A DNA stretch of 64,000 nucleotides from Rhodospirillales bacterium (GTDB lineage: Bacteria > Pseudomonadota > Alphaproteobacteria > Rhodospirillales > Thalassospiraceae): positions 310,001 to 374,000 of the forward strand of contig JAHQVT010000006.1 of assembly GCA_019634165.1 (NCBI GenBank), given 5' to 3'. A program made the position numbers and the translations under genes. This document shows positions 22,380 to 55,028 of this stretch, one piece after another. The first letter of the stretch is position 1, and every line of letters begins with the position of its first letter. Below the pieces are notes generated by a model. That model ran no database searches. It was not told the origin of the DNA and worked only from the letters and a program-made list of their open reading frames with translations.

Positions 22380-22395
22380 TGTGAGGTAAGTCACA
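22380..22395. promoter_or_regulatory. Perfect CRP-type operator upstream of the iron-binding-protein genes
   Basis: TGTGA-GGTAAG-TCACA, an exact match to the TGTGA-N6-TCACA consensus of CRP-family regulators. It lies 131-146 nt before the first binding-protein start. A possible promoter, TTTGGA (22408-22413), 17 nt, AATAAT (22431-22436), would put the site near -55. The same perfect motif recurs beside the CRP-type gene at 54438. Confidence 0.6.
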
Positions 22396-53560: not shown

Positions 53561-53660
53561 GTTGTTTGCCTATGATTGGTTGTAGAGAGTGGGATAAGAA
53601 TAGGGCGCACCAAGCTTGCCGCCTATATAAGAACAACAGCGCAACAAAAAGCATGTGGAC

Positions 53661-54341
53661 ATGGTCAAATTATCTGTCGTTGGTATTTTCGCGGACTTGG
53701 ACGAAGATGCACTTGCTGATGTCGAACGTCACATCAATCGCAAAACCTATGCTGCCGGGGCACAAATTATTGAACCGGAATCCGACAGTTCTGACGTTTA
53801 CCTGATCCTTTCTGGGCGGGTGCGTATTGTGAACTATTCCCTGTCTGGACGGGAAATCACACTTGAAGAAATTGGCGCAGGTGGGTGTGTCGGACAACTT
53901 TCAGCCATAGACGGGGAGCCTAGATCAGCGTGTGTGTTTGCCGTGAGCAACACGGATGTAGGTATTCTAAGCCCGGCGAACTTTGAAAAAGTGGTCAAAA
54001 GTCACCCGTCGGTTGCTTGGAATGTCATTGGTGAATTGGCAAGAATTGTACGCACGTCAACCCGTCGGATCGTGGATGTCAGCACGCTTGGGGCGAATGA
54101 GCGGGTTGTGGCCGAGATTTTGCGTCGCGCACAAGAGATTAGCAATGATGGCGGTTCGGCAACACTATCACCTGTTCCTGTTCATTCAGAAGTAGCAGGC
54201 CGTGTTAGCACGTCGCGTGAAACGGTGGCCCGCGTGATGGGAAGCCTTGGCCGCAAGGGGCTGGTCACAAAGGTTGATAGTGGTCTCTATGTGCCTGATG
54301 TCCGGCGATTGGAAGAGTTCCTTAGTGAATCAATTCATTAA
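53661..54341 (+). CDS. CRP/FNR-family transcriptional regulator, CRP-like
   Basis: 226 residues from ATG 53661; a GTG at 53655 is equally possible since neither has a ribosome-binding site. N-terminal cyclic-nucleotide-binding domain: IIEPESDSSDVYLILSGRV, then EIGAGGCVGQLSAIDGEPRSACV, where the phosphate-cassette RS pair is kept and the glutamate that contacts ribose is replaced by Gln. No FNR-type N-terminal cysteine cluster. C-terminal winged helix with recognition helix STSRETVARVMGSLGRKGL: R, E and R at the positions that read TGTGA in CRP. It should therefore bind TGTGA-N6-TCACA, present at 54438, 97 nt past its own stop, and at 22380. Confidence 0.88.
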   Translation: MVKLSVVGIFADLDEDALADVERHINRKTYAAGAQIIEPESDSSDVYLILSGRVRIVNYSLSGREITLEEIGAGGCVGQLSAIDGEPRSACVFAVSNTDVGILSPANFEKVVKSHPSVAWNVIGELARIVRTSTRRIVDVSTLGANERVVAEILRRAQEISNDGGSATLSPVPVHSEVAGRVSTSRETVARVMGSLGRKGLVTKVDSGLYVPDVRRLEEFLSESIH

Positions 54342-54437
54342 ATCCATATGCACTTTGGGTGTGTTTGGTCCTGACCTTGATGATTTCAGGTTATTGAAGG
54401 GTCAAAGTTGATAAGTTTCATAATATTTTACCAGCGA

Positions 54438-54453
54438 TGTGACGACTGTCACA
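54438..54453. promoter_or_regulatory. Perfect CRP-type operator, class II position
   Basis: TGTGA-CGACTG-TCACA, an exact consensus match, centred at 54445.5. A -10-like TATTAA (54475-54480) predicts a start at 54487, which puts the operator centre at -41.5, the standard class II activator position. Confidence 0.6.
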
Positions 54454-54474
54454 GAATTGGGCAGGGTGCGCAGG

Positions 54475-54480
54475 TATTAA
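54475..54480 (+). promoter_or_regulatory. Predicted -10 element of the small RNA promoter
   Basis: TATTAA. There is no good -35 hexamer; the perfect CRP-type operator occupies that region, as expected for an activator-dependent promoter. Confidence 0.4.
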
Positions 54481-54486
54481 TATTGT

Positions 54487-54569
54487 TGTGACGGGCATTT
54501 CGATTGTCCGGCACATCTCCCCCAAGAGAGTTTACTGGCCGTACATTATTATGTACGGCCACTTTTTTT
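54487..54569 (+). ncRNA. Predicted CRP-controlled small RNA (about 83 nt)
   Basis: Predicted from structure only. Starting near 54487, the transcript folds as a 5' hairpin (CGGGCA / UGUCCG, 6 bp, 7-nt loop). A small stem UCUC-CCCCAA-GAGA follows with a C-rich loop that could pair with Shine-Dalgarno sequences. It ends in an 11-bp terminator stem and T7. No open reading frame of note lies in it. It sits between the CRP-type gene and DUF423. The C-rich hairpin loop is like the anti-Shine-Dalgarno loops of known alphaproteobacterial sRNAs. Alternatively it is a premature-termination leader of the DUF423 gene. Confidence 0.45.
54536..54569 (+). terminator. Rho-independent terminator of the predicted sRNA
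   Basis: T-GGCCGTACAT (54536-54546), TATT loop, ATGTACGGCC-A (54551-54561), then C and T7 (54563-54569). Very strong; it has no protein gene immediately upstream, since the CRP-type gene ended 195 nt before. Confidence 0.9.
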
Positions 54570-54653
54570 GCGTTTTCGCATGGTAAGAATCATCTTGGAT
54601 GACTAGTCTTGCGCGATCATTTTGATTTAGCAGCGCAATAGGGGAACCCACAT

Positions 54654-55028
54654 ATGCGAATTTCTGTTGTTATGGCGGGTGTGAATGGGGCAATGGCGGT
54701 TGGTCTTGGTGCGTTTGCAGCGCATGGTTTGACCGGTAGCGAGATGGATTATGCCCGTGGCCTGGTCGAGAAGGGCGCGCATTACCAGCTTGTTCATGCT
54801 GTTGCCTTGGCTGCGATTGCGGGTCTTGTTCACCATGTTCCTGATGAGGAATGCTTGCGTCTTGCTGCTTACGCCATGTTGGCGGGCATTCTGCTGTTCT
54901 GTGGTTCGCTATATGTCATCGCCTTTAGCGGTATCGCAGCTTTTGGTGCTGTTGCGCCAATTGGCGGCTTGGCCCTTATTGGTGGCTGGTTGCTGTTGGC
55001 AGCAGCGGGGTATCGCTGCTTTCGCTAA
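54654..55028 (+). CDS. DUF423 family inner-membrane protein
   Basis: 124 residues with about four membrane helices. A hallmark GAFGAHGL-like motif appears as GLGAFAAHGL, and YQLVHAVALAAIAGL and FSGIAAFGAVAPIGGLALIGGW follow. This family (YgdD-like) is widespread, small and uncharacterised. AGGGGAA precedes the ATG. Single gene, terminated by a strong bidirectional hairpin. Confidence 0.9.
   Translation: MRISVVMAGVNGAMAVGLGAFAAHGLTGSEMDYARGLVEKGAHYQLVHAVALAAIAGLVHHVPDEECLRLAAYAMLAGILLFCGSLYVIAFSGIAAFGAVAPIGGLALIGGWLLLAAAGYRCFR

Follow-up and report, generated by a model that had tools for sequence, protein, structure and literature searches.

Between a crp-like regulator gene and a DUF423 gene, the genome of a Rhodospirillales bacterium carries a short stretch in which an initial annotation recognized a CRP-type operator placed before a predicted small RNA. 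The locus raises the question of whether such an RNA gene exists, whether it is controlled by the regulator encoded beside it, and what the RNA might do. The host genus is the marine Thalassospira, which NCBI places in the order Rhodospirillales; "the window" means the whole stretch of DNA analyzed (64,000 nt), and "the order" means the grouping of the genome collection used. We think it quite probable that positions 54487–54569 encode a trans-acting small RNA (sRNA) whose activator is the CRP-type product of the gene just upstream (Table 1). Judged from sequence, the best reading is a CRP-activated, probably Hfq-dependent sRNA that would mask Shine-Dalgarno (SD) sites by a CyaR-like logic; its CRP-type control appears well supported, and the masking and its targets are weakly suggested.

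Table 1. Features of the locus, in window coordinates
Feature	Position	Strand	Basis and remarks
crp-like regulator gene	53655–54341	+	cNMP-binding and Crp-type HTH domains; helix SRETVAR
CRP-type operator TGTGACGACTGTCACA	54438–54453		Perfect TGTGA-N6-TCACA; perfect in 29/29 Thalassospira
−10-like TATTAA	54475–54480	+	Class II offset; A2 in 28/29 Thalassospira and 65/81 other order loci
Predicted small RNA, 83 nt	54487–54569	+	Fold, conservation, covariance-model matches
5′ hairpin	54487–54515	+	Fold; sequence and type differ between lineages
C-rich core hairpin UCUC-CCCCAA-GAGA, proposed seed	54516–54529	+	Fold, conservation
Intrinsic terminator	54536–54569	+	11 pairs, then C and T7
DUF423 gene, downstream neighbor, not part of the RNA	54654–55028	+	Gene calls; 29/29 Thalassospira

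The Operator and the Predicted Promoter

The promoter elements claimed in the initial annotation are all in place: the perfect palindrome, TATTAA 21 nt past it, and a distance of 41.5 bp between the operator center (54445.5) and the predicted start (54487). Class II CRP promoters of E. coli have TGTGA-N6-TCACA near −41.5 and a −10 element at fixed spacing, and here a consensus operator is likewise accompanied by a −10 at a fixed offset, the start being assumed. Within the window, chance could account for the operator taken by itself, three sites with at most one mismatch standing against 2.18 expected; the whole genome holds nine exact sites and none for the reversed control pattern. It stands clear of chance because it is conserved, in all 29 Thalassospira genomes and in 81 of the 83 readable homologues found elsewhere in the order. 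Another perfect operator, TGTGAGGTAAGTCACA, lies at 22380–22395 of the window; an ORF encoding an extracellular solute-binding protein (PF13343; L100) follows about 90 nt downstream of it.

When the 81 order loci are stacked on the operator, 65 have A at −11 and 67 have T at −7, and an A/T-rich stretch appears 9–15 nt upstream of the operator. A2 and T6 of the hexamer occur together at offset 37 from the operator start in 63 of the 81, compared with 17 at most for any other offset from 20 to 61. This peak would correspond to class II spacing if the start, which is predicted, sits at the usual distance from the −10, and the spacing seems to hold independently of the R2 covariance model described below. 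The 21-nt spacer seen in 28 loci was set by the construction of the scan, and the evidence for spacing is the composition at the offset. At the exact offset the Thalassospira element is weaker, with T6 in only 5 of 29 loci, and in some of these the hexamer fits one base later. The likeness to E. coli class II promoters thus covers operator, spacing, and the upstream A/T-rich stretch; the differences are a regulator pocket with Q or H in Thalassospira and CRP binding and dependence that are here inferred from sequence.

The Predicted Small RNA

Behind the promoter, folding of the 83 nt recovers the structure originally described, with a hairpin at the 5′ end, UCUC-CCCCAA-GAGA, and a terminator of 11 bp and T7 that ends at 54569. 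Its folding energy is −34.7 kcal/mol (z −6.4), a stability that none of 200 shuffles reached, and the terminator scan returned 11 pairs followed by C and T7, a strong terminator. In having promoter-like signals of its own and an intrinsic terminator with a U-run, the predicted RNA resembles Hfq-type trans-acting sRNAs. The common hairpin is shared by 23 Thalassospira sequences, 17 of them distinct; 98.2% of their cells pair, which 0 of 500 shuffles attained. Covariation is modest, with two pairs changed on both sides, a figure equalled by 69 of 500 shuffles, and the core helix is invariant. In 27 of the 29 Thalassospira RNAs, closed ORFs range from 0 to 8 codons, and the other two reach 22 and 24 codons; this count takes in closed ORFs only, and a GTG frame of the own RNA runs past the terminator. 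The 1-nt indels between lineages argue against a conserved reading frame.

Conservation within Thalassospira

A perfect operator and the core AUCUCCCCCAAGAG lie between the crp-like gene and DUF423 in all 29 Thalassospira genomes. A sequence search with positions 54420–54580 matched 28 of 60 genomes, all of them Thalassospira, and missed the member G026, whose locus was recovered by a pattern search. Scanning the named genomes for operator, gap, and core returned 25 loci, 22 in Thalassospira and three in Sporosarcina. In the Sporosarcina loci (L046, L057, L062), which are apparently unrelated, a CRP-like operator is accompanied by a hairpin that looks like a terminator and contains TCTCCCCCAAGAG.

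The core 14-mer ATCTCCCCCAAGAG has one exact copy in 28 of the 29 genomes and two in G026. The second G026 copy lies on a 23S contig of that Thalassospira assembly (G026:C19:2980, L063), which we take to be Firmicute-like and which is probably contamination for that reason. Mimicry of 23S rRNA was considered because of this contig but rejected, the 14-mer being single-copy in the other 28 genomes. The distance from operator to core is 73 nt in four loci (L025–L028), 74 nt in L064, and 77–79 nt in the other 24. Three of the four shortest were folded (L025–L027) and have a 5′ hairpin of a different type; despite the shorter distance, a TA...T hexamer is kept at the class II offset in all four.

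A Family across the Order

Two covariance models were used, whose E-values are rough. The first, R1, was built from 28 Thalassospira RNAs and applied at E up to 0.01; it matched 69 of 317 order genomes, the 29 Thalassospira strongly and the others weakly. Forty weak matches were inspected, three of them second matches within Thalassospira, and in seven of the 40 a core ...TTCCCTCAAGAGCA... and a terminator came with a CRP-like operator. The remaining weak matches were set aside, as they looked like gene-end terminators or RF00519- or SorX-like RNAs. The second model, R2, combined 13 Thalassospira RNAs with these seven relatives and covered only the region from core to terminator, the operator being excluded. 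At E up to 0.001 it matched 168 of 317 order genomes, which represent 73 of 115 genera; in a class sample it matched 27 of 385 genomes, three of these 27 belonging to the order.

From the 139 non-Thalassospira order genomes with an R2 match at E up to 0.001, 84 matches were read, one per genome; G125 (with its match at a contig start) and G220 were among the best R2 matches left out, and second matches per genome were read only where they fell inside the inspected stretch. One of the 84 (L274) has no upstream sequence, leaving 83 readable loci, in 81 of which an operator of at least 8/10 stands 20–200 nt upstream: 58 score 10/10, 16 score 9/10, and 7 score 8/10. In the other two (L331, L332) no operator was found at 20–200 nt, the best score being 6/10. 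Since homology of the seven seed loci had been judged by eye with the operator in view, we also give the count without them, which is 74 of 76. Control regions returned far fewer sites of at least 8/10, namely 4 of 84 in the 20–200 nt downstream (none 10/10) and 3 of 81 at 420–600 nt upstream (none above 8/10). The class sample held 26 rows besides two from Thalassospira, 22 of which could be placed (four were clipped); the single in-order locus scored 10/10 and the 21 out-of-order loci 7/10 at most. The presence of operators at the order loci and their absence at these 21 means that the operator goes with the RNA and not with the model. Several of the out-of-order matches resemble RF00519 RNAs by eye.

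The initial annotation had made conservation of operator and RNA among relatives a test of its claim, and the claim survives it, since both are kept far beyond the genus. Operator, −10-like element at class II spacing, a C-rich core left mostly unpaired in predicted folds, and terminator are widely kept together in the order, and it is the 5′ part and the neighboring genes that change while operator, core, and terminator stay. Some relatives have longer 5′ parts, with predicted RNAs of up to 179 nt. Three shortened forms (L313, L328, L330) keep core and terminator with an operator 40–46 nt before the model match; they have no 5′ hairpin because only 2 to 8 nt precede CCCUC. Tandem copies of the sRNA, 140–203 nt apart and each with an operator, are present in L300, L303, and L306 (genomes G192, G247, and G195, respectively). 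Both operators are perfect in L300 and L306; those of L303 read TGTGATCTTCGTCACA and GGTGATGCCCATCACA. An extra operator-like site, TGTGACATTGGTCACT, followed by a terminator and lacking a core, is also seen upstream in L303.

The Regulator and the Neighboring Genes

The domains of the upstream protein (PF00027, 58.8 bits; PF13545, 34.7 bits) place it in the CRP/FNR superfamily. Against the CRP equivalog model NF008732 it scores 63.2 bits, the curated cut-off being 266, and its second-nearest solved structure is 7pza, a "putative cAMP-binding protein-catabolite gene activator" (2.9e-17). The helix SRETVAR, which we take to resemble that of E. coli CRP, is read in 28 of 29 Thalassospira loci, the remaining one (L012) being cut short. 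The E of the cyclic-nucleotide pocket motif is a residue with a role in CRP proper. It is present as GEL in all 22 readable order relatives, and Thalassospira has Q (GQL) in 20 and H (GHL) in 9 of 29, which makes the ligand of the Thalassospira regulator uncertain.

The claim that the sRNA is encoded beside its regulator holds for all 29 Thalassospira genomes and only in part beyond them, where a crp-like gene was found upstream in at least 23 of the other 84 loci and DUF423 downstream in at least 17; both are lower bounds because six loci have less than 800 nt upstream and three have less than 400 nt downstream. Among the 23 crp-like neighbors, 21 show TTRETVAR, L277 and L303 giving another string under the pattern used. 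It is quite unlikely, in our opinion, that another CRP/FNR-family protein of the cell is the actual regulator. In its favor, five stand-alone proteins of the CRP/FNR type that carry an HTH were read in the own genome, and no crp-like neighbor was found at 61 of the 84 order loci; yet SRETVAR occurs only in the adjacent protein, the other four having different helices, and the adjacency is complete in Thalassospira.

The downstream neighbor invites a different explanation: the stretch could serve DUF423 as a regulated leader or attenuator, its terminator being passed under some condition by RNA polymerase that started at the CRP-type promoter. DUF423 does follow in every Thalassospira genome, and in the window it starts only 85 nt past the T-run. 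An ordinary leader is nevertheless improbable because DUF423 was found at so few of the other order loci, where core, terminator, and operator remain; the strength of the terminator also speaks against it, and we give this possibility very little credence indeed.

Other families of the order also retain the arrangement crp–sRNA–DUF423. One locus of another family (L183) repeats what is seen in the window, with a crp-like gene, the sRNA, DUF423, and an S41 peptidase gene in convergent orientation, and by eye has a response-regulator-like ORF in between. In family f28 (L255, L262, L276, L290), a gene for a small protein with a CINRR-like motif precedes the sRNA and replaces the crp-like gene; the small protein of L255 is weakly like DUF1636 (18.8 bits, below the cut-off).

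Comparison with Known Systems

Enterobacteria are known to have CRP-controlled sRNAs with anti-SD motifs. CyaR (RyeE), a short sRNA of this group with a C-rich anti-SD motif and a terminator, is activated by CRP and gives E. coli CRP a repressive RNA arm. The predicted RNA described here is likewise short, with a putative C-rich anti-SD motif, a terminator, and a CRP control that is read from sequence, and it differs in its own sequence, its place in the genome, and the bacterial class. At gathering scores the window has no Rfam match, and 20 order loci returned tRNA only, neither CyaR nor RF00519 being found among them. The resemblance to CyaR would be one of logic, with no descent implied.

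As far as the available parts of the sources go, the closest described plan appears to be that of alphaR8/SisA. The alphaR8/MmgR/SisA-D RNAs (RF00519, suhB) are also alphaproteobacterial and have a C-rich core, a 5′ hairpin, and a terminator. The accessible text of PMC12559287 describes a C-rich seed of SisA that pairs near a start codon and reports no conserved motif upstream of sisA-D, whereas no part of the present locus is more constant than its promoter. Membership of the present RNA as a divergent form of RF00519 seems to us very unlikely. The plan is similar, the short forms L328 and L330 begin GUUUCCUCCC-like, and there are weak scores, of 24.1 bits here (L101, E 0.25) and 31.3 bits for L151; these scores stay below the gathering score of 41, none of the 20 order loci scanned reaches it, and all 29 Thalassospira genomes carry a separate RF00519 gene above the cut-off elsewhere. 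SorY (RF02651) and SorX (RF02784) are further C-rich sRNAs in Rfam, for which L151 is below the cut-offs (34.2 of 111 bits and 25.4 of 46.6 bits, respectively).

Other C-rich RNAs were seen along the way. Sub-threshold RF00519-like pairs, 371–391 nt apart, occur in several Thalassospira genomes and are possibly a further tandem C-rich sRNA; one such pair is at G019:C2:1104117 and 1103739, and similar ones are on G026:C33, G023:C11, G010:C115, G008:C9, and G003:C12. L145 and L171 (genomes G207 and G206) are SorX-like below the cut-off (43.3 and 36.9 of 46.6 bits) and have several C-rich stretches.

Regarding previous reports, 11 of 12 short strings are absent from the main text of PMC6413936, on small-RNA sequencing in Thalassospira, and CTCCCC occurs there once, in a listed sequence other than the core. 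One sRNA found through Rfam, BjrC80, is mentioned for Magnetospirillum gryphiswaldense in the accessible part of PMC9549626. In the literature searched on sRNAs of Thalassospira, Rhodospirillales, and alphaproteobacteria, mostly papers available without subscription, this RNA is unreported and no CRP-controlled anti-SD sRNA was found for alphaproteobacteria. On the comparative evidence we regard it as a real sRNA family, absent from Rfam and from the literature searched but of a kind already known.

The Core and Its Possible Targets

The masking model comes from two properties of the core CCCUC: structure prediction leaves it mostly unpaired in 80 of 81 order RNAs, and its sequence complements purine-rich SD regions; since a C-rich stretch has few pairing partners, the unpaired state is weak evidence. 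Sites of the form GGGGGAG-N3-12-ATG number 33 in the own genome, compared with 9 for the reversed control, and TTGGGGGAG gives 81 rows across 27 of 29 genomes, compared with 11, excesses that SD enrichment alone would produce in both cases. No genus-wide conserved target was found among 30 of the 33 own-genome sites and 29 of the 81 rows, which were examined as loci. The candidates that recur in a few genomes are a response regulator, a LivF-like ATPase, an ABC permease of the peptide type (17.0 bits in Pfam, below the cut-off), and a protein of roughly 194 aa that matches no Pfam family (L356, which is C5:20055 of the own genome, and L334 and L336). The SD region of the latter, UCUCUUUGGGGGAGA, nearly complements the sRNA hairpin, with a duplex of −27.7 kcal/mol in the own genome.

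A CRP-controlled sRNA that acts otherwise than by SD masking, as a sponge for an sRNA or mRNA or through protein binding, is unlikely in our opinion. With 14 nt exact in every Thalassospira genome, the core is more constant than a seed alone would need, the searches found no target conserved across the genus, and Caulobacter offers an example of an sRNA sponge (accessible part of PMC12559287). Against this stand the match of the core to SDs rich in purines and its resemblance in plan to alphaR8/SisA, where the seed, according to the same text, pairs close to a start codon.

Conclusions and Outlook

Masking of SD sites under CRP-type control remains the reading that we favor. In its sequence of events, a CRP-type dimer would bind at −41.5 and recruit RNA polymerase as a class II activator, the step most strongly indicated; Hfq would probably hold the RNA by its terminal U-run; and the C-rich core might then pair with purine-rich SD regions and block translation, by which the activator may gain a repressive RNA arm, these last steps being the most tentative.

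Taking the order as a whole, we lean slightly towards reading the RNA as an arm that the CRP regulon has had since the ancestor of the entire order. The crp gene and the sRNA would have been neighbors early, and the sRNA would later have been moved or duplicated, the copies read being nearly always accompanied by a CRP-type operator; in Thalassospira the seed would have been re-tuned from UUCCCUC to UCUCCCCC, with targets rewired or co-evolving. If this is true, a global regulator of the cyclic-nucleotide type would have a conserved RNA arm, and a family with so constant a promoter and with model matches in 73 of the 115 order genera examined offers a ready handle on that question. The different core of Thalassospira, in turn, makes the co-evolution of seed and targets testable.
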